Of a stretch of DNA of 54,454 bases, positions 22,597-48,333 are shown one piece after another; positions within the stretch are counted from its first letter, which is position 1; the number at the start of each line of letters is the position of its first letter. The notes under the pieces are model-generated. The model saw only the letters and a program-made list of their open reading frames with translations. It was not told the DNA's origin and did not search any database. The translations under genes and the position numbers were made by a program. The stretch spans positions 1 through 54,454 of IMG/VR virus record IMGVR_UViG_3300025141_000124. One strand, given 5' to 3'. Origin of the DNA: a virus.

Positions 22597-22629
22597 ATTA
22601 CCTTGAATAATAATATTATTCAAGGTAAT
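22597..22629 (-). promoter_or_regulatory. Perfect 33-nt palindrome spanning the spike gene stop
   Basis: The 16-base arms attaccttgaataata and tattattcaaggtaat are exact reverse complements separated by one base. On the coding strand the hairpin begins about 11 bases before the TAA stop of the spike gene and ends about 25 bases before the next ATG. No strong T-run follows on the minus strand, so it is not a classic terminator. It could protect or process the mRNA, or partly terminate. Confidence 0.55.
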
Positions 22630-31098: not shown

Positions 31099-32958
31099 TT
31101 AATGATTTTCTGTTACTTGCTGCCCGAGGCTAGCGGAAATAGCAAGAAGATTTTTGAGTTCTTCAGTCATGCGGACGTCCACTACTACGTTTTTGTTGTT
31201 TTTGTTTGAATCAGTAAAAGCCCTGAGCGCTGCGGCTAAGTCGTCAGTTGTCGGCCCAGAACTTCCGCCGCCTGGGTCGCCGGATGGAGGAGTGGCTAAA
31301 TTTTGTTGTGTATTCCTATCGACTTTGCCAGCATCAGTTTCTGCTCCGAGAACACTTGCAGCTCCCGTCCCATCTGGGCCTGCACCTATTACTCCCAAAA
31401 GCCTATCAACTCCAGCTGCATAGGTGCCCACACCATCTCTCGCTGCTTTTGATCCGACGTCAACCATCTCTTCAAGTTTATCCCTAAGAAGCTCTGCGCC
31501 GCCTCTTTGTTTTAAAAGTGTTTCGCTCGCTATTACTGCCAACCAGTTTGATTGTGCGGCAAGATGCCTGTTTGACAGCTCAAGCTTATCTAGAGTCTGA
31601 TCTCTGCCATCTTTTTCTTTAGCTATCTGCTCTTCGAGTAATGCTTTTGCATCAAGATCTCCAGATCTTGTTGCATCATCTAGGTCAGCTAATAACTCAA
31701 GCGTTCTATTTGCTGACGCCTCATCCTTTATTCCAAACTGATTCACTAATAGTTTCTGCTGCATAAAAAAATCTTTCTCTAGCCCAGGACTTTCTGCGGC
31801 CTGTGAAACCGTCACAATATCGCCGCCAGTAAATGATGCCAAAGTATCTCTCATGCCCTTTGCTAATTCGGCTCCAAGATCTGCTTGACTTCCTGTTTTT
31901 TCTGCTTCCAAAACTGCGGCTTGCAATCCAATCGATGAGCTTAAAACTCCTCCGCCTCCGCCAATATCCAGGCCCCCTCTTTGAAAGATTAAATAAGCAT
32001 TTGCATAATCAGTTGTAAGGCTTGCTAATGAACTTGATAACCCTGCGGTTAAATCTGTTGCGTTTTCTATGCCCAGCCCCATATCATTCATCACTCTTGC
32101 AAACCCTTGCATTAGAGGAACGCCAAAGTCAGCAGATATGCCAAGTTTTGTAAATCCGGAAACAGCACTATTTAGGGTTTCAGAAACGCTTCTTATGCTG
32201 AGGCCAGTCTCCATTGATACTCCACCAAACATTGCCATCATCTCTAATGCGTCTTGAGCGCTTTTGCCCTGTTTGTTTAGAGCTGTGCTAAGAAGCCCCA
32301 TGCCTTCGTTGGCCGTTAGCCCACTTGCGGCTGCCAAAGACCATGCAGCAGCCAAAAGACTTGTGTCTCCAAGCCCTGTTCCAACAGTTTTGTTTAGCTG
32401 CTCTAGGGTTACATTTGTTCCTGCAGATGCATCTGCAAAAGCTTTTAGCTTGTCTCTCGTAAGGTGTAATGTTTCACCGAATTGACTATATGTTTCTTTC
32501 CTTAGGGCTTCTCCGAACTTAAAGGCTTGCTCAATCGTACCGCCAAATTTCTTATTTAGATCAAAAATACCGCTAGCAAAGGATCTCACATCCCTAGACG
32601 GAGCATCAAAAAAATCAAATGCAGCCTTAAGTCCTGCATCGCCAATACTAATAAAATCTGAAAAAGCGTCTCCGACTACCCCAATTCCTTTTCCCAGACC
32701 CTCGAAGCCTTCTCCAACCAGTGGACCGGTAGACATTAAGGTAGTTATAAACCCTAAAGAGTTTTTTCCGGCATCTACAAAGTTTTCTGCACTTTTCGCC
32801 AGATCCTCGAAGGCGCTTGTCATGTCGCCAACAGGCTTTGCGCTATCCGAGCCAAGACGACTCAGGCGATCAACAGCCTCTCCCATACTTGTGATCGCCT
32901 TAGCGGCTTTCAACGCGCTGTCGGTAGTCTTTTTAAACTTGCTATCTTCTGTCGTCAT
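31099..32958 (-). CDS. Tail tape measure protein
   Basis: This 619-residue protein lies directly after the frameshifted chaperone gene, the normal place for the tape measure in most tailed phages. It is helix-rich, with the alanine/glycine/leucine-rich hydrophobic middle typical of the family (GLTANEGMGLLSTALNKQGK, SAVSGFTKLGISADFGVPLM, residues about 210-360). A charged helical part follows (about 415-465), then a Gly/Pro/Ser-rich linker (SGDPGGGSSG, about 560). Tape measures fix tail length at roughly 1.5 angstrom per residue, so about 90 nm would be expected here, similar to T4 gp29 (590 residues). The ribosome site is weak (AATAGG). Identification rests on context and composition. Confidence 0.78.
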   Translation of the reverse strand: MTTEDSKFKKTTDSALKAAKAITSMGEAVDRLSRLGSDSAKPVGDMTSAFEDLAKSAENFVDAGKNSLGFITTLMSTGPLVGEGFEGLGKGIGVVGDAFSDFISIGDAGLKAAFDFFDAPSRDVRSFASGIFDLNKKFGGTIEQAFKFGEALRKETYSQFGETLHLTRDKLKAFADASAGTNVTLEQLNKTVGTGLGDTSLLAAAWSLAAASGLTANEGMGLLSTALNKQGKSAQDALEMMAMFGGVSMETGLSIRSVSETLNSAVSGFTKLGISADFGVPLMQGFARVMNDMGLGIENATDLTAGLSSSLASLTTDYANAYLIFQRGGLDIGGGGGVLSSSIGLQAAVLEAEKTGSQADLGAELAKGMRDTLASFTGGDIVTVSQAAESPGLEKDFFMQQKLLVNQFGIKDEASANRTLELLADLDDATRSGDLDAKALLEEQIAKEKDGRDQTLDKLELSNRHLAAQSNWLAVIASETLLKQRGGAELLRDKLEEMVDVGSKAARDGVGTYAAGVDRLLGVIGAGPDGTGAASVLGAETDAGKVDRNTQQNLATPPSGDPGGGSSGPTTDDLAAALRAFTDSNKNNKNVVVDVRMTEELKNLLAISASLGQQVTENH

Positions 32959-32966
32959 AAATTAAC

Positions 32967-33401
32967 CTATTCTTCTTTTGCAAGATTAAGGAGCCCAGCC
33001 AAATTCTTTGGCAAACGGACATTTCTTCCGTCTCTAGCTCTCTCATTATCATATAAATTAGTATTTTTATACTTTTCTTTAATAGCCTGAACAATATGGT
33101 CGTCTTTGAATGATCCGTCTAGTATTTGCTTCTCGAACTCTTCGTCATCCATAAACCTTGGATCATCAACCGAGTCTCGAGAATCACGAACCTGCTTAAC
33201 TGCCTCTGCATTCCAGAATGATGCAAGATACTCTGTTAGGCTTAATTGGTAGTCATATTGATCTGACTCATCTTGATAAAACATTTGAGCATACCAAGCC
33301 CACTGCTCTCTGGTTATTTCAGAGAACTTTTCATCATCGACTTTGCAGCCCCAAATTTTGCAGAGTTTCCAACGGAGCCTACTGATAGGCTCCGTTGCTA
33401 T
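32967..33401 (-). CDS. Tail assembly chaperone, -1 frameshift extension (T part of a G-T type fusion)
   Basis: This frame encodes 144 residues and is entered from the upstream chaperone gene by a -1 slip at 33401-33407, giving a 307-residue fusion. It starts IATEPISRLRWKLC and continues through EITREQWAWYAQMFYQDES to NLAKEE. The REQWAWYAQ segment resembles the conserved part of G-T type chaperone extensions. The first ATG in this frame (33284) has no ribosome site and would drop 39 residues, including that segment. In lambda and P2 the fusion product binds tube subunits and the tape measure; the tape measure gene follows 8 bases later here too. Expression by frameshift is inference from sequence but strongly supported. 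Confidence 0.85.
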   Translation of the reverse strand: MATEPISRLRWKLCKIWGCKVDDEKFSEITREQWAWYAQMFYQDESDQYDYQLSLTEYLASFWNAEAVKQVRDSRDSVDDPRFMDDEEFEKQILDGSFKDDHIVQAIKEKYKNTNLYDNERARDGRNVRLPKNLAGLLNLAKEE

Positions 33402-33407
33402 TTTTTT
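33370..33407 (-). promoter_or_regulatory. Programmed -1 ribosomal frameshift site
   Basis: On the coding strand the 0 frame reads CTA AAA AAA TAG. The seven A residues (33407-33401) form an A_AAA_AAA slippery heptamer touching the stop. Three bases later comes a perfect 12-bp stem, CAACGGAGCCTA / TAGGCTCCGTTG (33397-33386 and 33381-33370), with loop TCAG. A -1 slip continues as ATA GCA ACG into the 144-residue extension frame. No T-run follows the stem, so it is not a terminator. The 3-base spacer is shorter than the usual 5-9, but the AT end of the stem may open. Confidence 0.88.
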
Positions 33408-33889
33408 AGCTCTTCTAACCCGACCTCTTTAGACGAAGTTTTGGTAAGCTCTTCATGAACACGATGTAATCTTTCAACTACTGATAGCTGCAGCCCTAGC
33501 ACAACGCTTAGGCGCTTATCCTCATCAGAAATAATCTCAGTATCTTCACATAAATCAGCCAGTGGTACGCCGTTAATTGTTCTTAAAGAGAATGACAGAG
33601 TAAGGGGCCTGATATCAAGAAGTCTATCGACTTCCTCTGAGGTCATAATCTTCCTCATAATACTTTTTTGTTCATTTATATTTAAAGTTGAAATCTCAAA
33701 CGTAAAGCCGCCGATGACTTCTTTCCTTGTAAGCCTCCCAAGAAAGGCTAAATCTTTTAAAGAAGACATGCTTAGCTTATTCTGCTTCGGCTCTTCGGTT
33801 TTATCTAATTTAACTGGATCTTGACTCACGGGGCTCTCTCCATCTGCTTGCTCATTATTATTTGAGACTTGTCCTGATCTTCTTGGCAT
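33398..33889 (-). CDS. Tail assembly chaperone, short form (G-like)
   Basis: This 163-residue product is the unshifted form. Residues 1-40 are polar and probably disordered. The rest is a compact helical/beta domain (IGGFTFEISTLNINEQKSIM, EEVDRLLDIRPLTLSFSLRT) resembling chaperones that bind tube or tape measure. It ends GLEELKK directly at the slippery heptamer. The ATG at 33889 follows a TGGAG ribosome site. It comes just after the terminator that follows the tube gene, so its level may be lower than that of tube and sheath. Known role in the family: non-virion helper, made in excess over the frameshifted form, that coats the tape measure before tube polymerisation. Confidence 0.82.
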   Translation of the reverse strand: MPRRSGQVSNNNEQADGESPVSQDPVKLDKTEEPKQNKLSMSSLKDLAFLGRLTRKEVIGGFTFEISTLNINEQKSIMRKIMTSEEVDRLLDIRPLTLSFSLRTINGVPLADLCEDTEIISDEDKRLSVVLGLQLSVVERLHRVHEELTKTSSKEVGLEELKK

Positions 33890-33997: not shown

Positions 33998-34630
33998 CTA
34001 GTATGCTGCTGATATAAGCCCTGGGAAGTCCAGAGCACCTCTGCGCTCACCAGAGTCTGCGGCACCTTCAACGCTATCATAGCTTCTACCGGGAATCTCT
34101 CTGGAGCCCTGTACGCCCTGGCTGAGAGAAACAGGCTCGCCACCTCTAGTTGTAGACATATGCTCTGCAGATACTGTTGCAGTTTCTGCAATAGTATAGT
34201 CAGCAGCTGAATAAGTCTTTCCGAGTGCGCTGAACCAGCAGTTATGATAAGTAGTAACTACTGCATCATTTCCACTTCCAGAGAACTTATCAATGATAAC
34301 AATGTCAAACGGCATTCTCTGCGACTGAATATTTCTAAATCCTCTTGAAAAAGCCTCAGGAAGAGATATGCCATCAAAGACAATCCTATTGATCTGCAAG
34401 TTAAACGTTGCTGACTGATTTGGGACTATCTCAATCTGTCCATCTGTGCCAATTTCAGAAATGGGCTTCAGAGTCCTAGCTTGCGACTCGGTTATTGTCT
34501 GGATAGCGCCGACCGGCTCGTTGTTTACATAAACAATGATCTGTGTAGATAATCCGGCGCGAGTTCTTCCTCCGGTTGCCGGAGGAGGACTTCCGTCGAA
34601 AAGAGTTCCTGTACTTGGATAATCTGCCAT
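33998..34630 (-). CDS. Tail tube protein
   Basis: This 210-residue protein directly follows the sheath gene and has the usual tube pattern: GGRTRAGLSTQIIVYVNNEP (about 20-39), EIGTDGQIEIVPNQSATFNL (about 58-77), NRIVFDG, PEAFSRGFR, SQRMPFDIVI and a late YHNCWFSALGKTY strand pair (about 128-140). The C-terminal 40 residues are polar and flexible. Tube subunits form hexameric rings inside the sheath and carry the genome during ejection. The start has a strong GGAGAAAG ribosome site. A terminator follows, consistent with high expression of sheath and tube. Confidence 0.88.
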   Translation of the reverse strand: MADYPSTGTLFDGSPPPATGGRTRAGLSTQIIVYVNNEPVGAIQTITESQARTLKPISEIGTDGQIEIVPNQSATFNLQINRIVFDGISLPEAFSRGFRNIQSQRMPFDIVIIDKFSGSGNDAVVTTYHNCWFSALGKTYSAADYTIAETATVSAEHMSTTRGGEPVSLSQGVQGSREIPGRSYDSVEGAADSGERRGALDFPGLISAAY

Positions 34631-34642
34631 TACTTTCTCCTA

Positions 34643-37600
34643 TTAAATTACGCCGACTTCGATATCTATAAAGATATAGTTGATCGGGTAAGCTGGAGCG
34701 AACTGTAGGAAGACGTTAATCTGTCTTGGATCAACCTTATCCTGTTCAACTCTGATATTTTTAAAACTTGTAACCAAACCCTGGCTAACTAATCCAGACA
34801 TAATCGTTCTAACTCTTGCGCCCATTAATACGTTTGTATCTGCGTTCTGAACTCCACCGATAAACGGCCTTAGAGAAGATCTCAGAGTCTGTTTTACGGC
34901 ATCTCTAATGAAGATAATTGAGATCTCTTCATCTTCAACAAATCCTGATTGACTTGTGGTTCTTCCTGCGAGGACTCTTCCTCCACCGGTAATTGGCTGC
35001 AGCAAAGTCGCTCCAACGCCTCCAAGCTGGTTCTGAATAATTGGACGATAAACCTTATCTCTTGTTAGAGAGAATCCTGATAGAGATTTGTCAGTCAATG
35101 GAATTGCAACATTCTGTTTAGCTGACAAGAATCCTGCCGCCGCCGCTCCCATGTAGAATCCGTGAAGACTAACATTTGTTCCGTTCACATTTCTTACAAT
35201 TGAATCGGGATAGAAGTAAACTGCTCGATTACTTGTGTAGTTATCGCTCAGCTTGAAGTTGACTAAGTCCTCTATGTTTCCGTCGAGAACCTCTTGCGCC
35301 TCATCTCCTTGTATGCCCTCTATGATTCCAATATCTTCAATTGCGATCAATGAAGTTCCGATAAGTGCAGCCGGAGTAACGCCAATCTGCGCGCCGATGA
35401 ATGCAACTCGCTCTTTTCGGTTAGCAACAGAACTCATATTTTCACAGTGATTAACTGTTGCTCGGAAGATAGATGAAATCGCCTGATTTGGGAGAGGAAC
35501 AATTATCTGAGCTTCAGCCGCCTCTAATGCCTCTAGTGCATTAAACCAGTTAGTATCAAAGAAGTCTGCATCATTCTCATCTATGTAAGAAATCTTTAGA
35601 CCGTCGCCCTCCTGAATCACCCCGCTAGTAACTAGATCTTCATGAAGCAGTAATAGGGCGTCATCTGCATTTGAATCAGATGGATCCTTTACGAAGAACT
35701 GCACATCAGAATAAGTCTTAGTTAGCGCCAGTGCGGTTGCGACGTTAGAACTAACCGTGACAAGAGAATCATCTTCTACCGTATCTATCTTTAATTCAAC
35801 AGATGGAACAAGAAGGACTGCGCCATGAAGCTCATTTGAAATATCTGCTACAGATGTATATACGGTCCCTACCGAATCTTCCATACTAGTAATTACAATT
35901 ACATTTCCTACATCTTCGCCATCGAAATCAATTTCGGGGGTAGAGAAGTATTCTGCTCCAGATTCTGTACCAATAGTTCCTTCGTCACCACTTCCGACAA
36001 CCTCAAGGGCTGCATCAACAACAGTATATGCGAAGGCATTATCAGAGCTACCTACCCAGTTCCCCTGCTGAATATCAGTAGATAGCTGAGAGTTATAAAA
36101 GCTAGCTTTATTCGGGAAAATCTGAGTTTCATCACCGTCTCTTATGATAAAGATATTAACTCTAGTATCTGCATCTGGCTTTCCACTTCTAAGTCCGGTA
36201 ATTGGCCTAGGAATTGTAAATCTTAGATCATCAACCTCACACGCATCAGCTGACAAAGTTCCAGCATTATAGCAAGCCGAGAAGCCACCAACACCCAAAG
36301 AGTTTCTTTCCTCAAGGAGCGTAACAGATGTTCTTCGCGGAACCGGAGGCTTACACTGTAGTGCTAGCAGGCCGGGTGCTCCGTTCTCTAAAATAAGCTG
36401 AGTGCCAAGCGAAAGAGTATTTTCTGTGCTTGGCAGGCCATGTTTCTGGAATAAATCTGAAGACTCAGTGAAAAACTCTGGATCATTCAAATCAATCGCA
36501 GCAATATACTTCGCTGTGAGATTATCTCCGCGACCTAGAGCTCTAGAGCTTATATCTACAAAGAATCTATCACCAACCTCAAAGCTTGTTGCGCCCTCCT
36601 GAATTCCCAAAAGTAGCACTCCGTTATTCTCTAGAAGATGGAACGTTAGGCCCTCTGCTGCCAGACCATCAACAGAGGCTCCAGAAGCCTCCTCAAGGTC
36701 TTGGAATCCAACCAATGGGGAGTCTAGGTCACTGACCCTAACTCGCCGCGAGGATGTAACCTGATCGATCTTAAACAGACCGCCGTCGAAGTCGCCGCCA
36801 TTGCAGATTAGAACAGTCCTTCCTACATCTGCGCTTGTAAAGTTACCGGCAGTTGATGGCGCTCCAGTGAGCATATTATGAACAATGGCCGGATTATCAA
36901 TCAGAAGATTAGTAGCTCTAATATCCCAATCATAAAGGTCTGCTTCATCCCAAGCTGGGTCTGCCGGTCCAAGACTGTCCGTCGTTACTGTAATCGTAGT
37001 ATCAGTGCCATCGTATGTGATATCTTCAATCTCATAACCTACATAGCCGTCTAGGCAGAGGAAGTCTCCGGTGAGGGCCTGTCCTTGGCTGACTAAGTCG
37101 GCTCCAGAGACTAGGAAGGTATTACTTGTGGTGAGAGTTGTATCTCCAGTTCTCATAACAATACTTCCCTGAGGGAAGGTAGTTATCAAAGAACTTCCGC
37201 TTGCAACAACTACTCCGTCAGCGCATTCTGCGATGTTTCCGGAGATAGCTCCGTTCGCGCTAGTGAAATAGCTGCTAGAGAAAGTTAGAGGATTTCCAAA
37301 ACTATCATAAAGCTGACCAGAAGTATCTCCAGTGGCAGTAAATGTTGCCAGACCAGAAATCGGATCACCATTAGAATCTCTAATAACACTTACACATCGA
37401 ATCGTCCACCTTTCACTTGGGGCCGAGTCGTCTAGAATATCTAGAGTTATAAGCGGAGTACAATCGTCGTTATCAACAATGATTCCAGTTCCAATATTTC
37501 CGGAGCCTGCAGAGTACCCCTTGCCATCTTGATCGCCAATCGATGCACCTCTTAGTTCTATGCGCCCATTGGATATATCAAGTCTATAATCAAACGGCAA

Positions 37601-37921
37601 AGCAACGCCCGAGGCGTCAATTACTTCCTGCTTTCCGAAGAGAAGCGTTCCATTTAATCGCAGTTCTGTTCTGCCGCTTATAACGGGAACATTTGATAGC
37701 TCAAAAAACCTACCATCACCGGTCCCTGTCGGGCTCCAGCTTGATTCCCCATCAGCACCGCCGCCGGCCGCAGATTGAACAATTGTTTCCTCTCTTAAGC
37801 CTTCGCCTAAAGCTGCCACAATTCTTATCCCGCCCGGAATAGAAACGCTACGAGATACAACCCGATCTCTTGCAAATGCTCCGGGCTGTACGAAGCCTGT
37901 TATTCCTGGTATATTAGCCAT
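34643..37921 (-). CDS. Contractile tail sheath protein, enlarged (1092 aa)
   Basis: The N-terminus (IPGITGFVQPGAFARDRVVS) and the last about 270 residues carry sheath signatures: RVAFIGAQIG, NVSLHGFYMGAAAAGFLSA, PLTDKSLSGFSLTRDKVYRP, and the closing RVEQDKVDPRQINVFLQFAP with YIFIDIEV, the C-terminal strand arm that links neighbouring subunits. T4 gp18 has 659 residues, so several hundred extra residues form an inserted, beta-rich middle (about 45-820) likely facing outward. A strong GGAGGA ribosome site precedes the ATG. Sheath contraction drives the tube through the envelope. The assignment is secure; the insertion, which would decorate the tail surface, is of unknown function. Confidence 0.92.
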   Translation of the reverse strand: MANIPGITGFVQPGAFARDRVVSRSVSIPGGIRIVAALGEGLREETIVQSAAGGGADGESSWSPTGTGDGRFFELSNVPVISGRTELRLNGTLLFGKQEVIDASGVALPFDYRLDISNGRIELRGASIGDQDGKGYSAGSGNIGTGIIVDNDDCTPLITLDILDDSAPSERWTIRCVSVIRDSNGDPISGLATFTATGDTSGQLYDSFGNPLTFSSSYFTSANGAISGNIAECADGVVVASGSSLITTFPQGSIVMRTGDTTLTTSNTFLVSGADLVSQGQALTGDFLCLDGYVGYEIEDITYDGTDTTITVTTDSLGPADPAWDEADLYDWDIRATNLLIDNPAIVHNMLTGAPSTAGNFTSADVGRTVLICNGGDFDGGLFKIDQVTSSRRVRVSDLDSPLVGFQDLEEASGASVDGLAAEGLTFHLLENNGVLLLGIQEGATSFEVGDRFFVDISSRALGRGDNLTAKYIAAIDLNDPEFFTESSDLFQKHGLPSTENTLSLGTQLILENGAPGLLALQCKPPVPRRTSVTLLEERNSLGVGGFSACYNAGTLSADACEVDDLRFTIPRPITGLRSGKPDADTRVNIFIIRDGDETQIFPNKASFYNSQLSTDIQQGNWVGSSDNAFAYTVVDAALEVVGSGDEGTIGTESGAEYFSTPEIDFDGEDVGNVIVITSMEDSVGTVYTSVADISNELHGAVLLVPSVELKIDTVEDDSLVTVSSNVATALALTKTYSDVQFFVKDPSDSNADDALLLLHEDLVTSGVIQEGDGLKISYIDENDADFFDTNWFNALEALEAAEAQIIVPLPNQAISSIFRATVNHCENMSSVANRKERVAFIGAQIGVTPAALIGTSLIAIEDIGIIEGIQGDEAQEVLDGNIEDLVNFKLSDNYTSNRAVYFYPDSIVRNVNGTNVSLHGFYMGAAAAGFLSAKQNVAIPLTDKSLSGFSLTRDKVYRPIIQNQLGGVGATLLQPITGGGRVLAGRTTSQSGFVEDEEISIIFIRDAVKQTLRSSLRPFIGGVQNADTNVLMGARVRTIMSGLVSQGLVTSFKNIRVEQDKVDPRQINVFLQFAPAYPINYIFIDIEVGVI

Positions 37922-39639: not shown

Positions 39640-42600
39640 TTATATTGTTTCAATAATGTTACTGACTTCTAAGATTCCAGACAAGGTATTCCATGCGCTA
39701 TTCTCTTGCATCAAGGAAAATCCTCCAGGCACATCGATAGACCTCTGACTGATGTTGTTGGTAATTAAAATATTTTTATAGGTGTTACCCTTGTTGAAGT
39801 AGATGACAGCCTGCTGATACCCTACCCCGTCAAAATAGCAATCACGAATCGTGACATTTTGATACGTCCCACCCGAACTGTTCCCGATATGAAATGGCAT
39901 CTCATTAATTGAGCCGGATTTTGTTGCCCCAGAAACATAGTCTGTAGCGGCTATAAAGCGTATACCGCTAAACTTAAAGTGCGCCTTTGTAGCGCCGGTG
40001 TTAGTGATGTTGTTGGTGACCCGGAAAACGGTGCCGGACTTTCCGGCTGCCTGATCAGCTATCCCCTCAAAAGTTAAGTTGCTTACATCTACTCCATATA
40101 GAATGGTGCTAGACCCTGTATCAGCGCCAAGTAATACCATTTCGTGCCTCTCGGCAGTTATCGGGGAATTGTCAAGAGGGAAGGAAGTGGCTCTTTTTAT
40201 TATCGAGGTTGGTCCAGTTCCATGGATCTTTACGTCAAAATTCAAGAACAATTTTTCTGTTAGTTCGTAAGTTCCTTCTTTTATAAAGACGCTCGGAATT
40301 CCAACATCGGGGAACATTTTTGAGAATATTTTCGCATATTGCACCGCCTTTTGCACGCTTGTAAAGTGACCAAACCTTTGATCATTAGACACAGTTATAT
40401 CAGCTATGAACTTGTAATCAAGATTGTCAACAAATAGTCTCAGGTCCGTAACTACAGAGGTTGATGTCGTGACGTATGCCAAGTGAGCAACATTCTGTGT
40501 ATAGAATGGAGATAGATAATCTATTCCAGCATCTGGATCAACTTCATTTCCAATTATAATGCATCCCTCGGCATTAAGTGCTACATAGAAGTTGGTAGTT
40601 GCGCCATTTGTATGATCATATACTAAGTTAGTATCTCCTAGATATTCTATTCTAATTCCGTTAACAACTCCAACTCCAGGGCTGATATTGATTAGAGAAG
40701 TTCCATCTCCATTATCAGTTACAGAGCTAACATCAATTCCTCTTATAATTCCGCTTCCTCTTAATTCATTTCTTGGACCCTGAATATATCTTTCTATAAA
40801 TGAACCAGATATAATTGTGTCATCTATTGTTCCGGTAGTTCGCTTATCAGTTGTATTTAGAACTCCAACTCCACCTGATCCAACGCTAGGCTCTTCAATT
40901 ACAACTCCAAACTCAGGAGAGAATATTGTTCTACAAAGATGAAGGGTAGATGACGGAAGCTCATCATATCCGTATATCGTAGAGGTTAAGTTTCCGGCGG
41001 TAATTGGGGTGGCTGCCTCGTTTGGAATAAAAACGTCTAGAACTATATAGTTCATCCCATCGCTAGAAAGAATCTTATATTCTCCGGTACTTCCGACAAA
41101 TGTTTCTTCACCATAGACGCCTAATGGCTCAAGCTTGATACTTGCCATACTACTAGTATCAATCTTTAGAGTAAATTCTTGGCTATCACCAATAAAATCT
41201 TGGGATACATCTTTTACTATGGCATAAAAATTCGCCACAGACATATGTCCGACAATATCCATCCTCTTCTTGAAAAATATATTTGCATTATCATCCGCAA
41301 ATATATCTAACATCATCATTCCATCTGTTTCAATAAAGTTTAACTCAGAAATTGGAGCCGTAGACCTTAAGATAAATACGGAGGATGTACTTGATAAAGT
41401 TCCTGAAAGTGGAGTAGTAAAATCTAGGATTAATTTAGCCGACTCGACTGTCTTAATAGAATATGTCCCGTCATCGGCCGGAACTGATGATCCATCAATT
41501 AAGACTAAATCTCCAGCTCTTACTCCGCTTGTTATAAAGTTTGTTGTGCCTACAGCGTTTAAGCCAGAAGTTCCAGATCCAATTGAAATAGAGGCAAGAG
41601 TATGACTTATTATTCTTCCGAAATTATCAATAATCTTTCCATTGATATGTGCTGAGTTTCCCGAAGAGCCGAGCACTACTCGATCTCGGATATATACAAG
41701 TCCCATAACCGTCGCCGCATCATTGGCTGACGCTGTAACAATCCTTAAGCTTCTAGCTTTGGAGTCGCCAGAATAGTTTGGCATGTTGTGAGACAGAGCT
41801 AGCTCATAGCAGTTTAAGGCCTTGAGCTTGTAGGCGAAGAAGTTTAACTTATTATCTGTGCAGAATCTATTTATTGTGGCGATGACTATATCAAGGGTTT
41901 GCGTTGAGTAATCTGAGTTAAAAATATCTATTTCGTAAGTAGTACTCTCATCAACTCTGACGGCCAGAGTGTCGATACTTCCATTTGCTAAATTTTCCGG
42001 CCTAGCTCTGGATGAAATAATTGTAGCAGAGTTTGGAAGACAAACCTGAACTAAGGGTGAATTACTAAATCCAAGCCTAGGCCTGACAGTACAATTTAGA
42101 GCGTTCTCATTATAAACAGTATAAGTGCTTTTGCTAATTCTGGCAGTAGTTCCTACTACTAGATTATTCTTTGGGCCATCATAAATCTCAACCGAACTTA
42201 GGCTTCCATCTAAGTTTAGATTTATAGATGAAATAAGATATTTAATATTATCTTCTTCATTTGGAGAATTTAAAATTTCTAATATATCAAATTCATTTAT
42301 GGTCGAAATAACAGTGGGACTACTCCCAAATGTTATAAGAGTTCTTGAGGCTCCACTAATGGCCGAATATGAAATCGAAGATGATGCCACCAGAATAGAT
42401 CCAGAGTCTAGGCCTTCGAAGGCATCAAGCGTCTCTCCAGTTCGAATTATTCCATTTGAATTTAAATTTAGAATAGAATTCCTTAAGCCAACTCCTTCTA
42501 GGTTTGCCAGATCATCTATAGCGCCCTGAACATCATCAGAATCAATAATATTTGAATTTAAAGTTTTATCATAATAAAGCTGATCGGCTTTATGCGAATT

Positions 42601-43194
42601 ATTAGCTGCACTTACGTTCTCTCCGGAAAATCCTATATGAGCATTATATAAGGCTTCAAATGCAGCCTGCACAGTGCCTGATGCCAAAGATAACGTGGCA
42701 ATAGACGACGCGACTACTGTTGCCGCCTCTGTATTAATTGCTTTTGCTTTATGTCTATTTACTGCATCGGGATGTATGTGTGTAGAGAGTATTGCGTTCA
42801 ACTCATTTAGGGCATCTAGAAGCAATTCTATCTTATTGTCCAGAATAGAAATTTCGTCCTGCAATAACTGAGTTGGAAAATTAAGCCTAAGCTTACCCTC
42901 TGCAATGGCAGCGGCTTTAGAAACATCCTCGTTTGTAATCGGCCCGGATAATATTCCTGCCTTATCAAGAGCTGTTTCTATTATGTTTCCATTTTCATCT
43001 AGAAGATTTCCAAGTCTTGATGCAACAGTATTTCCTGCGGCTCCCTGTGGGTTTATTCCAAGAGTCTTTTCTATATTGAATATTGCAGACCTAAGACTAT
43101 TAAGAACGTCAGATCCAATTTCTGTAATGTTATCTCTTACAGATGGAATCTCTACGGAAGTATCAAGTTTGCCTGGATAATTTGATTTAGCCAT
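39640..43194 (-). CDS. Tail fibre-like protein B (1184 aa), paralogue of the preceding fibre
   Basis: The first about 120 residues are near-identical in pattern to the upstream 1709-residue protein: MAKSNYPGKLDTSVEIPSVR, the TLGINPQGAAGN segment common in phage fibre N-termini, and PITNEDVSKAAAIAEGKLRL. The two remain alignable to about residue 950 (GIIRGIDVSSVTDNGDG; GHFTSVQKAVQYAKIFSKMF). From there to the end it is a right-handed beta-helix-like region (IKEGTYELTEK, repeated short strands). It stops there and has no C-terminal chaperone-type domain. AGGAA precedes the ATG. Likely a trimeric fibre or tailspike using the same attachment site as its paralogue. No catalytic residues were identified. 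Confidence 0.8.
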   Translation of the reverse strand: MAKSNYPGKLDTSVEIPSVRDNITEIGSDVLNSLRSAIFNIEKTLGINPQGAAGNTVASRLGNLLDENGNIIETALDKAGILSGPITNEDVSKAAAIAEGKLRLNFPTQLLQDEISILDNKIELLLDALNELNAILSTHIHPDAVNRHKAKAINTEAATVVASSIATLSLASGTVQAAFEALYNAHIGFSGENVSAANNSHKADQLYYDKTLNSNIIDSDDVQGAIDDLANLEGVGLRNSILNLNSNGIIRTGETLDAFEGLDSGSILVASSSISYSAISGASRTLITFGSSPTVISTINEFDILEILNSPNEEDNIKYLISSINLNLDGSLSSVEIYDGPKNNLVVGTTARISKSTYTVYNENALNCTVRPRLGFSNSPLVQVCLPNSATIISSRARPENLANGSIDTLAVRVDESTTYEIDIFNSDYSTQTLDIVIATINRFCTDNKLNFFAYKLKALNCYELALSHNMPNYSGDSKARSLRIVTASANDAATVMGLVYIRDRVVLGSSGNSAHINGKIIDNFGRIISHTLASISIGSGTSGLNAVGTTNFITSGVRAGDLVLIDGSSVPADDGTYSIKTVESAKLILDFTTPLSGTLSSTSSVFILRSTAPISELNFIETDGMMMLDIFADDNANIFFKKRMDIVGHMSVANFYAIVKDVSQDFIGDSQEFTLKIDTSSMASIKLEPLGVYGEETFVGSTGEYKILSSDGMNYIVLDVFIPNEAATPITAGNLTSTIYGYDELPSSTLHLCRTIFSPEFGVVIEEPSVGSGGVGVLNTTDKRTTGTIDDTIISGSFIERYIQGPRNELRGSGIIRGIDVSSVTDNGDGTSLINISPGVGVVNGIRIEYLGDTNLVYDHTNGATTNFYVALNAEGCIIIGNEVDPDAGIDYLSPFYTQNVAHLAYVTTSTSVVTDLRLFVDNLDYKFIADITVSNDQRFGHFTSVQKAVQYAKIFSKMFPDVGIPSVFIKEGTYELTEKLFLNFDVKIHGTGPTSIIKRATSFPLDNSPITAERHEMVLLGADTGSSTILYGVDVSNLTFEGIADQAAGKSGTVFRVTNNITNTGATKAHFKFSGIRFIAATDYVSGATKSGSINEMPFHIGNSSGGTYQNVTIRDCYFDGVGYQQAVIYFNKGNTYKNILITNNISQRSIDVPGGFSLMQENSAWNTLSGILEVSNIIETI

Positions 43195-43203
43195 TATTTA
43201 TTC

Positions 43204-46200
43204 CTATCCACAGTGATATGTACATCCAACAAATGCCTTTCTATAAGTCTGGCCATTATGCTCAAACTCAAAACAATTATACGATTTATTATCTAATTCA
43301 AAATTACAATCACAAGTTATTTTTGCAACAGTATAATTATGCAGTAAATCATCATCTTGTCTCATTCCGTATCCTGGAATTTCACATGTTGTAATGTAAT
43401 CTCCATTTTCAAGATCACCGTTAATATTACAAATCCAAATACCACCTTCTCCAAGAGAGTTTATGATTAATCTGTTATCATTCTTTTCGAAAGTTGAAAC
43501 AAATGCTCCAACAGCATAAACCCTGGAATCACTATTCTCATCTTCAGAGTCAGATATAACTCCAAATACCCGTTTGTCCATACGAGTAGTTGATAGACCT
43601 GTGATGGGCAGGGCTTCGTTAATTTTTGCGTGAATAGAAGAATCCAAATTCTCATATCTGCCTAATGAAGCTACGATTAGCCCCACATGTGCAGCACTAT
43701 AGATGTCCTCATCTGACGCAGACCTATGCTGCCCAGTGAAGTCAAGGCCATCTGTGTCTACTGAGTTATTTCGGATAAAGGCCTTGACTTCACTGGTTCC
43801 ATATGTAGATGAAAAATGATGAAAAGCAAGAGCATCCTGGGCTAGGGCCGGACCAGATAATGGATACTGCGCCAGATTCCGAATGTTCCAGAAGTTAGTA
43901 TCAGTAGCGTTCTCCCCGTTGTGTGTGCCATTCTTGTGAATATTTAGCCCTGTATAGGCTGAGTCAGCAGTCTGTTGAAAGATGTCAAGCCTACCAAAGT
44001 TTGTATCCATCCTAAAGCTTTCATAAAAATCTGTACCATATGGAGATCCAGAGGCAAGGCCTGGGTCATATTCACCAAAACTTATAGTGCTAGACAACGA
44101 CACAGGATCAACGACATCCCTATTTATGGCTATATCTCCAACGCCGCCGCCTGCGCTGCCACGTATATATAAGCTCTGCTTGGCGCTCGTACAGATATTT
44201 ATAATAGCAGGAGTTTCCGCCGAGACTGTAGAGTCATAAAAGTTCACAAGGCCCTTAGCCCTGATTGTCTCAGTATTACCAGCATTGAGAGCCGAAGCCC
44301 CGATTAAAACAGGGCTGTCTCCTTCATGATTCAGGTGCAGCTCGTCCATGGCATCGCCATTTCTGGCCATAATTTCATTGCGGTCTACGGCAATATGCTG
44401 CCCCGCCTTACTTCCAACAATAAGGGCTCCAGACTCCCTATCTGTCGGAACAACATCACTAGCGGTTGACTCTATATAAACTTGTCCGCTTATATGTGCT
44501 GTATTTTCCGGAGAAGCTGTTCCAACTCCGAGCCTCCCGCCCATAACTAAGCCTCTGCTGATTCTATCTCCCCAAAGATAGGAGCTGGAGGCATCTGGGC
44601 TGGGATCAGATGTGCCATCTGTACTGTCGGACATAGTGTTGGCTCTGAACTCAATATTATTGAACGAAGCAGATCCTACAAAATCAAATATATGGCCGAC
44701 TCCAGATACATAAACTGCGTAATGAGACTCTCCATCAATAGCTCCGTCTCCTGTTCCTCGAAAATTATTATTTGATATATTTATATTAAAATGGTCAGAT
44801 GCATTATATACATTACTCTTAATGTGAGAGTTTAAAAACTCACAATTAGTCACACTTAAATTTCCTATTTTAGTCCCTGCGGCGGCGTCTAGTCCTTGGA
44901 CTAGAACTCCATAGTTATATTGGTCAAATACAGTTCTTCCAGACTGATCGAAGACAACATTATCAATATTGATTGAGTAGTTTTGCTTAGACACTCCACT
45001 TTCTAGCACCGGATCAAAGATCAAAACCCCAGATAAATTGAGCTTTAAATCTTTAATATTAATAACTCCAGACGTTAAGACATCTGCATCTCCGTCTGGA
45101 GCAGATGCTGCTAACCCAGAGCCGGCAATATACAACCAGTTACTCATCTTTGATTCACCAGCATTGCCTCTGGTGTCAGCGCCAGCAACCGTATTAGTAA
45201 ACGTTCTAATTAAGTCAAGAACTGTTGACTCACCCTCTCCCACCAAGTTTACTGGGAAGTTTATCCAGATTCCTCCATCATAAGCTGGCTGAACATCCGT
45301 GACACTCCGAGGGGTGTAGAGGGCATCCGTTGTGCTCATCTCTGTGACGATCTGGTGGGTTCCAGACTTCAAATGGACAGTGGGGATGCCGGCCTTTGGG
45401 AACGCCTGAGAGAATCGCTTAGCGTACTTCAGGGCCTTATTTATATCAGAGAAGTGTCCCATTCCAGGCTGGGGGCTTACTGTTATCGAATTTAGAATTC
45501 TTAAATCTAAATTATCAATAAATAGGCGAAGATCAATTATTGCAATACTTGTTCCATTATTTTCGACAGCACCTAAGATGCAATAATCATATGGACTAAA
45601 TGGGCAATCACATGCGGCAGGGTCTGGAGCTTTAAACGATAACTCTCCCCATGAGTTTATTGCTGCATAAAACTTGTCTACAATTGGTACACCCGGTCCA
45701 GTCTCGATATCCGTTACATATTCAGAAACCTCTTGAAGCTCAAATCTTTTGCCGCGAACATAGCAAACACCAGCAGACACGGAAACCGTGTACGTTGTTC
45801 CGTTGTCTGTGACTTCGGTTACTTCTAGTCCGCGAATAACTCCATTTGATCTTGTTTCAAGAAGCGGAGATTGGTATAAGGAGAATAAAACATCAGTTCC
45901 TATATCTTTTATTCCAACCGATCCCTTCCTTAGCTTGCCAAATGTTCTGGGGTAATCTCTTCCGGCTCCAGCAATTCTCGATACCGATGCGTCGTAATGA
46001 ACTCTTCCTAATAGAAGATTCTCTTCTTCATTTATTCCTGAGTATCCATATAAAGCTATAGAGAAGCCTACGGCGTCGGCTACAATTTTGGCAGCAATTC
46101 TATCTGAATCCTTAACAAATACGGTTATAGACGTATTATATTTGCCAGAATAAAGAGTTATGTATTCTGATTTAATATTTTCAAATTTAAAAACTTCTCC

Positions 46201-48333
46201 AGAATCAAGGCTCATCTCAATCTCTTGATCTGTCACGTCTGTAGAAGATTTGTTTATTAGAAGAGTTCCGGTATTGGTGCTGCTATATACAGATATATCT
46301 CCATCAAAATCAACTACCGCTGCTAAGCTTTCGGACCCAGCGAAAACCTCTGTGCCATATGTTAGCCTTTCTTTGTATAGAATTTCTCGATTTGTTCTAT
46401 CCATGAATACATCTATAACAGATGCAGACGAAGCTCCTCCGGGCATAACTTTAAATGCCATTTCATTTAACGAAACAGAATTTTTATATATTGTAAATTG
46501 AGTATCAGAATCAGATATGCTGGTCCACTTATTACTAACTAGCTGTGTTACATCAACAGAGAAGGTATTTGAACTTACATCTAAAATTACGTAGGTTCCA
46601 TCGTCACCAGGCGAATCCGATATAACAAGTATATCGCCATTTCTTATTCCAGACTCAACGAAGTCTATTGAGCTTGATGTAACTGATGATGTTCCGGATA
46701 GCATAGTTAGCCCGGTAATAGAAATCTTTGTGTCTAGACCAGTAAATGCTCTTCCCTGAATGAGATATTGGGTTCCAGGCTCTGATGTTACGGTGATATC
46801 CTCAAGCTCGCCAAGGCCAATGGAATCTATGGCTCCATCAGCTCCTCGTGAAAATTTAATCGTATACTCTTTTGTTGTTGTGCTTGGAATCGAGTGTACG
46901 AAGACAATTTCCGAATGATCTTTTTGATCATAGTCTAGCCTATAAGCTGAGACGCTTAATCTGTTTTCTGCAAATTGAGCATTAAGAGCTTTAAGGATTG
47001 AGTTAAGTGATTGGCTTTCTCCAGTTAAGCTCAGATCTCCATCATAAAGGTCTAATATAATGCTAGCCGCTCCGTCTATAGATATTTTCAAATATCTATT
47101 AGTCAAGCTTATTTCTCTCGGACGAATATTTCGAGTAGATATATTTGCCGAATTTGGATTAGAAACCTGAATAACATCTGCGTTGTTGAACGAGATAGCT
47201 CCACCAGATTGATATTCTCTTGCAGTTAGCAGTAGGCCTACCGGCTCAGAAACTCTATTTTTATTTCTATAAATTTTTGCCGTTGTATCATCTTCTGATT
47301 CGGCTAAAAATTGGCCGTAAATATCAACACTTTCAATACTTAATCCGTCTATCGAGTAGTTGACTTGATAAATCTGGAAAGAAAGAGTTTCAGTTGGAGT
47401 TGTTATCTCTAAAATATCAGATGATGATATAGAGAGGTCTGGAACATCTGGGCTATCCGAGAATAGAACATTAGAGATAATGCTATTGGCGCTAGTACTT
47501 GATGTAGTATAGTAGACATCTTCCTCTGATAATAGCAGCGCGCCCTTTGTTGGTTCCGCTGTAGATGTTAGAAGATTAGATCTCAATATAGAGTTGGCAT
47601 GATGTAGATTCTGGTGTCCATCAACTTGCCCAACTGTGATATCTAGGGTTGCTTCAATCGCGTCCTGTACGTTATCTGCATTAATAAGCGCAGAAACATT
47701 TTCATCATCAAAGAAAACCTGCTCACTAGTATGGGACCTATTTGACCCCGATATATCTGCTCCGCTATAATTGATATGCGAATCAAATATTTGTTGGAAA
47801 GCCGCCTGTGCTGTCATTGCAGCAGAAGACGTAACTCCCAAGGCTGATGGGGTATTTAAAATAGCATCTATAGCTATAGCAAGACCCTTATGGCGATTGG
47901 TTGCGGCAGGATGTATATGGGCGGACAGCGTTGTATTTAGATCGGCTATAGAAGCCTCTAACAAATCTACCTGTAAAATTATTTGAGAAATTTCATCCTG
48001 TAGTAGCTGTGTTGGGAAATTGAGTCGAAGCTTTCCTTCCGCAATTGCGGCCGCCTTTGAAACATCTTCATTTGTAATTGGGCCAGATAACAGACCGGCC
48101 CGATTTAGGGCGTCAGATTTAATATTTCCATTGCTATCAAGAGCTTTGCCGATTCTTACAGCTACAGAGTTTCCTACGGCACCCTGTGGGTTCACTCCGA
48201 GCGTGCGTTCAATCTGAAATATAGCGGACCTAAGGCTGTTAATAACATCTGATCCAATTTCTACAATATTATCTCTTACGGCAGGTATTTCTACCGACGT
48301 ATCTAGTTTATTTGGATAATTTGATTTTGCCAT
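43204..48333 (-). CDS. Tail fibre-like protein A (1709 aa) with peptidase G2-like C-terminus
   Basis: Residues 1 to about 120 form the shared N-terminus (TLGVNPQGAVGN; PITNEDVSKAAAIAEGKLRL). The middle is beta-rich, and a right-handed beta-helix region starts near 950 (GMGHFSDINKALKYAKRFSQ, TVHLKSGTHQI). After a GRLGVGTASPENTAHISGQV junction (about 1270), typical of fibre tips, come beta repeats. The last about 120 residues (1589-1709: VFGVIS, NSLGEGGIWICN, NGDYITTCEIPGYGMRQDDD, HNYTVAKITCDC, GCTYHCG) resemble the peptidase G2 self-cleaving fibre-maturation domain known from phi29 gp12, with seven cysteines. The ribosome site CGGAATAAATT is nearly the same as in the paralogue. A receptor-binding role is inferred. 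Confidence 0.82.
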   Translation of the reverse strand: MAKSNYPNKLDTSVEIPAVRDNIVEIGSDVINSLRSAIFQIERTLGVNPQGAVGNSVAVRIGKALDSNGNIKSDALNRAGLLSGPITNEDVSKAAAIAEGKLRLNFPTQLLQDEISQIILQVDLLEASIADLNTTLSAHIHPAATNRHKGLAIAIDAILNTPSALGVTSSAAMTAQAAFQQIFDSHINYSGADISGSNRSHTSEQVFFDDENVSALINADNVQDAIEATLDITVGQVDGHQNLHHANSILRSNLLTSTAEPTKGALLLSEEDVYYTTSSTSANSIISNVLFSDSPDVPDLSISSSDILEITTPTETLSFQIYQVNYSIDGLSIESVDIYGQFLAESEDDTTAKIYRNKNRVSEPVGLLLTAREYQSGGAISFNNADVIQVSNPNSANISTRNIRPREISLTNRYLKISIDGAASIILDLYDGDLSLTGESQSLNSILKALNAQFAENRLSVSAYRLDYDQKDHSEIVFVHSIPSTTTKEYTIKFSRGADGAIDSIGLGELEDITVTSEPGTQYLIQGRAFTGLDTKISITGLTMLSGTSSVTSSSIDFVESGIRNGDILVISDSPGDDGTYVILDVSSNTFSVDVTQLVSNKWTSISDSDTQFTIYKNSVSLNEMAFKVMPGGASSASVIDVFMDRTNREILYKERLTYGTEVFAGSESLAAVVDFDGDISVYSSTNTGTLLINKSSTDVTDQEIEMSLDSGEVFKFENIKSEYITLYSGKYNTSITVFVKDSDRIAAKIVADAVGFSIALYGYSGINEEENLLLGRVHYDASVSRIAGAGRDYPRTFGKLRKGSVGIKDIGTDVLFSLYQSPLLETRSNGVIRGLEVTEVTDNGTTYTVSVSAGVCYVRGKRFELQEVSEYVTDIETGPGVPIVDKFYAAINSWGELSFKAPDPAACDCPFSPYDYCILGAVENNGTSIAIIDLRLFIDNLDLRILNSITVSPQPGMGHFSDINKALKYAKRFSQAFPKAGIPTVHLKSGTHQIVTEMSTTDALYTPRSVTDVQPAYDGGIWINFPVNLVGEGESTVLDLIRTFTNTVAGADTRGNAGESKMSNWLYIAGSGLAASAPDGDADVLTSGVINIKDLKLNLSGVLIFDPVLESGVSKQNYSINIDNVVFDQSGRTVFDQYNYGVLVQGLDAAAGTKIGNLSVTNCEFLNSHIKSNVYNASDHFNINISNNNFRGTGDGAIDGESHYAVYVSGVGHIFDFVGSASFNNIEFRANTMSDSTDGTSDPSPDASSSYLWGDRISRGLVMGGRLGVGTASPENTAHISGQVYIESTASDVVPTDRESGALIVGSKAGQHIAVDRNEIMARNGDAMDELHLNHEGDSPVLIGASALNAGNTETIRAKGLVNFYDSTVSAETPAIINICTSAKQSLYIRGSAGGGVGDIAINRDVVDPVSLSSTISFGEYDPGLASGSPYGTDFYESFRMDTNFGRLDIFQQTADSAYTGLNIHKNGTHNGENATDTNFWNIRNLAQYPLSGPALAQDALAFHHFSSTYGTSEVKAFIRNNSVDTDGLDFTGQHRSASDEDIYSAAHVGLIVASLGRYENLDSSIHAKINEALPITGLSTTRMDKRVFGVISDSEDENSDSRVYAVGAFVSTFEKNDNRLIINSLGEGGIWICNINGDLENGDYITTCEIPGYGMRQDDDLLHNYTVAKITCDCNFELDNKSYNCFEFEHNGQTYRKAFVGCTYHCG

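Follow-up and report, generated by a model that had tools for sequence, protein, structure and literature searches.

A probable programmed -1 ribosomal frameshift in the tail assembly chaperone gene of an uncultivated phage and its relatives

The virus record analysed here (the window, that is, the whole stretch of 54,454 bases) very probably carries a programmed -1 ribosomal frameshift in its tail assembly chaperone gene, similar to that of the lambda G/GT genes. Comparison with related loci demonstrates a slippery heptamer in the proper phase, a hairpin behind it, a coding -1 frame devoid of its own start, a conserved gene order and, likely, a chaperone fold of the 0-frame protein. From these features we infer that slippage occurs, that its efficiency yields a minor fusion product, and that this product serves tail assembly. 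The elements of the site and its neighbouring genes are as follows:

33401..33407, minus strand: slippery heptamer A AAA AAA in 0-frame phase (sequence)
33398..33400, minus strand: 0-frame stop TAG, directly 3' of the heptamer (sequence)
33370..33397, minus strand: putative stimulatory hairpin, 12-bp perfect stem with the 4-nt loop TCAG (inverted repeat, folding, pair counts)
33388..33393, minus strand: 5' arm of the conserved core stem, GGAGCC, 7 nt past the heptamer (type I pair counts)
33374..33379, minus strand: 3' arm of the conserved core stem, GGCTCC (type I pair counts)
33398..33889, minus strand: 0-frame tail assembly chaperone (gpG-like), 163 aa and TAG (translation, family profiles, predicted fold)
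32967..33401, minus strand: -1 frame extension (T-like domain), 144 codons and stop (translation, alignment)
31099..32958, minus strand: tape measure candidate, 619 aa (position: directly follows the chaperone fusion wherever related loci reach that far)
33998..34630, minus strand: tail tube candidate (phrog_985 virion structural protein, E 8e-10; synteny; "tube" suggested by position)
34643..37921, minus strand: tail sheath protein, 1092 aa (phrog_2839 tail sheath, E 1e-14)

The 0 frame starts at the ATG at 33889 and runs for 163 codons to the 3' end GAA GAG CTA AAA AAA TAG, in which the heptamer touches the stop. The hairpin, CAACGGAGCCTA TCAG TAGGCTCCGTTG, starts 3 nt past the heptamer, i.e., directly after the stop codon. 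In the -1 frame, 144 codons are open up to the stop at 32967, giving a predicted fusion of 307 aa, and the earliest ATG, GTG or TTG is found at 33284, with none upstream. The preliminary description had read these elements correctly from the minus strand: the end CTA AAA AAA TAG is present, the perfect stem beginning three bases after the heptamer lies at 33397-33370, and translation confirms the length of the open -1 frame and the predicted products of 163 and 307 residues. Folding of a 101-nt region gave -28.9 kcal/mol, against -20.8 +/- 3.1 for shuffled sequences (z -2.65), and the stem of the window is more stable than 500 of 500 synonymous-codon shuffles (-21.3 vs. a mean of -4.9 kcal/mol).

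Relatives were collected from viral metagenomes by two routes, through the sheath protein (68 loci) and through an alignment of the -1 domain (80 loci), and 62 distinct sites were scored in the final count, including L001, which is identical to the site of the window. An in-phase X XXY YYZ slippery heptamer was found in the frame overlap, either abutting the 0-frame stop or one codon short of it, in all 62 sites, which do not represent independent events because some of the relatives are of recent common ancestry. The heptamer is A AAA AAA in 32 sites, T TTA AAA in 16, A AAA AAC in 11 and A AAA AAG in 3, while the 0-frame stop follows immediately in 42 of the 62 and one codon later in the other 20. 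As a control, 522 open frames of at least 100 codons from the window and the first loci were examined; an in-phase heptamer of this kind at most one codon from the stop occurred 39 times, 38 of them at the chaperone gene and only once among the other 484 frames. The presence of such a near-stop heptamer at the chaperone gene is far above chance.

The hairpin was assessed in the 37 sites of the first set by comparing the downstream 39 nt with sequences encoding the same -1 peptide by other codons. In 36 of these sites, it folds more stably than 95% of the synonymous shuffles, with a mean energy of -15.5 vs. -5.8 kcal/mol. The exception is L035, in which 74% of the codon shuffles fold as well; here, as in L155, the hairpin is weak or shifted. 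Most sites contain a type I stem, composed of the core GGAGCC-8 nt-GGCTCC with variable outer and inner pairs. In the 32 type I sites, the pairs between alignment columns 15-20 and 29-34 are almost always formed; 80% of positions in this helix are paired, compared with 32-53% when the helix is slid, and changes on both sides of the stem were counted in 22 cells, against 12.7 after shuffling, the near-invariant core giving little covariation. A second stem group occupies the same place in L060, L130, L132, L133, L134, L139, L141, L142, L150 and L153. In this second, type II helix, compensatory change is clear (18 cells vs. 4.8; score 0.424 vs. 0.160; 0/500 shuffles). The stem has thus persisted through changes both in its own sequence and in the peptide encoded there.

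Stimulatory structures usually begin about 5-9 nt after the heptamer. Among the relatives, the core stem starts 6-7 nt past A-type heptamers and about 10 nt past T TTA AAA, and the outer base pairs are often mismatched. The very short spacer and the unusual geometry proposed in the preliminary description therefore apply only to the full 12-bp stem of the window, as the conserved core lies at an ordinary distance of 6-7 nt. Presumably, the outer pairs would already be open when a ribosome is positioned on the heptamer. The hairpin is thus stable, ordinarily spaced and conserved beyond the needs of coding, as expected of a stimulatory element.

The extension behind the slip site is also under constraint. 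Past the hairpin, substitutions favour the third positions of the -1 frame (2985 vs. 2133 and 1827), a pattern which indicates that this frame is coding. The peptide EP..RLRWKLCKIW.C.VDD..F, encoded right after the slip site, is among the best-conserved parts of the domain, and the methionine at -1 position 39, corresponding to the ATG at 33284, is absent from many relatives. The predicted model of the -1 domain is helical (pLDDT 75.5) and found no PDB match in a structure search, so its proposed T-like role rests on position. Taken together, the comparison with related phages, which had been suggested as a check, strongly supports a programmed -1 frameshift as the link between the two tail chaperone frames: the heptamer is kept in 62 of 62 sites, the hairpin in nearly all, and the peptide before the ATG is conserved. 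Slippage itself is deduced from these features.

Identification of the 0-frame product required its relatives, as the chaperone of the window gave no match in direct profile searches. Of the 35 family members, 12 matched phrog_2992, annotated as "tail assembly chaperone" (best E 2.3e-8), and 11 matched phrog_2792, also a tail assembly chaperone. The AlphaFold model of the 0-frame protein (mean pLDDT 76) had as its top PDB match the HK97 tail assembly chaperone 2ob9, with a probability of 0.97 but an E of 0.089, a TM-score of 0.58 on the target and 15% identity. The protein thus likely adopts a chaperone fold, and its assignment as a tail assembly chaperone is based on the profiles of relatives together with this HK97-like predicted structure.

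The surrounding genes fit such an assignment. The two overlapping frames, in a -1 relation, are located between the major tail genes and the tape measure gene, the identities of tube and tape measure being partly positional, and the order sheath, tube, chaperone, -1 domain, tape measure is repeated across the related loci found via the sheath. The sheath of the window also matches the Pfam sheath C-terminal domain with an E of 1.7e-5, just under the curated cut-off, and the tape measure candidate shows a weak PhageMin_Tail match below the cut-off. The sheath protein (34643-37921) is long, and only the last ~190 of its 1092 residues match the sheaths of cultured phages. In five loci (L008, L021, L027, L028 and L066), ~0.2-1.9 kb of extra sequence separates the sheath from the tube or the tube from the chaperone, with the frameshift module intact.

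We propose that most ribosomes would read CTA AAA AAA TAG and release the 163-aa G-like chaperone, while a minority would meet the hairpin with lysine tRNAs placed on AAA AAA. Both lysine tRNAs could then re-pair one base back, again on AAA AAA, and translation would continue through AUA GCA ACG to produce a G-T fusion of 307 aa. If lambda is taken as the model, the tape measure protein would be coated by the N-terminal part, and tail tube subunits would be recruited by the -1 domain, so that the ratio of the two products would help tail assembly.

Several other explanations of the site were weighed against the frameshift. The fusion of the frames might arise at the level of transcription, if the polymerase added or dropped an A on the A7 run and thereby produced mixed mRNAs. 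Such a run is present in 32 of the 62 sites and could in principle allow some polymerase slippage; however, 14 sites have only A6 and 16 only A4 (T TTA AAA), with both phase and hairpin kept, and X XXY YYZ motifs followed by a hairpin at a ribosomal distance point to tandem tRNA slippage, which makes transcriptional slippage quite improbable. It is also conceivable that the hairpin and the T7 complementary to the A-run form an intrinsic terminator for plus-strand transcription, antisense to the tail genes. A terminator scan on the plus strand did rank this element first (12 pairs, then CTATTTTTTT), but all neighbouring large frames are on the minus strand, and the stem varies in sequence and register while the -1 frame remains open. 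A conserved GC hairpin with a T-run was not found either: the T-run, present in the window, is only T4 in 16 of 62 sites, the T TTA AAA relatives, in which the heptamer phase is kept. We therefore consider a terminator very unlikely.

The -1 frame could, alternatively, be an independent gene, translated from the ATG at 33284 by reinitiation or from its own ribosome site. This ATG does exist and would give a product of 105 aa. Nevertheless, conservation in the 38 codons upstream of it ranks with the highest in the domain, many relatives lack the ATG altogether, and 52 of the 62 sites have no start codon accompanied by a Shine-Dalgarno-like site within the first 60 codons; a separate gene is accordingly a highly improbable reading. 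As for a sequencing error or a decaying gene, nothing speaks for it beyond the frame change itself. It is refuted by 62 distinct sites, drawn from many samples, which share the frame relation and conserve both frames, leaving its likelihood practically negligible.

The stop codon beside the heptamer deserves separate attention, as its near-fixed position sets the release factor against -1 slippage, an old question that becomes testable in a natural system. At the 62 chaperone sites, the 0-frame stop is TAA or TAG, never TGA. TAG is enriched (17 of 37 chaperone stops vs. 39 of 225 other gene ends), as is a C after the stop (24 of 37 vs. 16 of 225). A weak stop could have been selected in this way, judging from these base frequencies, but the bias is also simply explained, because the hairpin begins with this C and the third base of the stop belongs to a -1 codon. 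One may further suppose that the stop itself has been selected for a function next to the heptamer: as a weak signal read by RF1 (TAG or TAA, in many cases with C as the next base), it would delay release just enough for slippage, and the chaperone ratio would be tuned by termination speed in addition to the hairpin; we regard this as a doubtful possibility. The suggestion in the preliminary description that the stop may stall the ribosome and promote slippage gains no support, since in about a third of the sites (20 of 62) the stop lies one codon further on. As recounted in PMC4373837, when the HIV site was examined in bacteria, a stop at this position lowered frameshifting, with the release factor competing. 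Upstream of the heptamer, at a distance of 4-16 nt (about 33411-33431 in the window), a purine-rich, Shine-Dalgarno-like stretch is modestly enriched, reminiscent of dnaX-like sites; at 12 nt, an energy of -5 kcal/mol or lower is reached in 26% of sites, compared with 5% in the background. This stretch may act as a stimulator, or its enrichment may only reflect amino acid composition, that is, a Glu-rich peptide.

A close counterpart to the proposed frameshift is found in Bacillus phage G (gp181/gp182, NC_023719), in which A AAA AAC directly precedes the TAG of gp181, much as the heptamer of the window adjoins its stop, and the annotation gives gp182 as the joined product and calls it a tail assembly chaperone. 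The -1 peptide of phage G, SRIRWKVMKAIG..SDPR, is homologous to SRLRWKLCKIWGC..DD of the window (33% over 69 aa); when 50,697 phage records were searched with the -1 domain of the window, it was the only match (E 7e-3). Both genomes have the sheath upstream and the tape measure downstream; phage G differs in its weaker, 5-bp predicted stem, in its very distant proteins and in a sheath of 579 aa instead of 1092 aa. In Eggerthella phage LE2-3, LE23_86/LE23_87 carry a tail chaperone annotation, and A AAA AAA stands directly before TAA, followed by a hairpin. Unlike in the window, the two are annotated as separate genes in a GC-rich region, and the LE2-3 -1 domain was not found in the search with that of the window. 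Considering these two phages, the description of a stop-adjacent heptamer as an unusual geometry was overstated. Sites of the G GGA AAA type occur near the stop in Rhodococcus phage E3 and mycobacteriophage Myrna.

As in lambda G/GT, two chaperone products, one of them -1-extended, would be encoded before the tape measure gene, with a role assigned by analogy (PMC5009743). The likeness drawn here is one of arrangement and expected role. The site of the window is A-rich, its hairpin is strong and simple, and the stop adjoins the heptamer. Outside phages, A AAA AAC and a downstream RNA structure fuse two frames in bacteria in insA-insB' of IS1 (PMC12428005), although this element encodes a transposase rather than a tail assembly protein and its structure is described as a pseudoknot. 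G/GT frameshifting is widely conserved among long-tailed phages (PMC5009743), and a prediction tool could be trained on the many chaperone frameshifts already annotated (PMC10885494). The known counterparts therefore place the site of the window within an already known kind of frameshift, while a literature search returned no specific description of a chaperone frameshift in its phage group. The present comparison documents a probable G/GT-type frameshift over a large uncultivated clade of contractile-tailed phages, some of whose contigs are above 200-300 kb. Most chaperones of this clade are missed by standard profiles, and the conserved signal offers a reliable way to annotate the fusion.

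Some further features of the window were recorded. A perfect 16-nt inverted repeat with arms 1 nt apart lies at 22597-22629 between two large genes (boundaries 22572 and 22616), overlapping the end of the second. Another perfect inverted repeat, of 17 nt with arms 30 nt apart, is located at 43733-43796 within a fibre-like gene of 1709 aa. The adjoining frames 39640-43194 and 43204-48333 encode large proteins with a near-identical N-terminus, MAKSNYP.KLDTSVEIP.VRDNI.EIGSDV, which suggests a duplicated fibre or baseplate gene whose C-termini have diverged.
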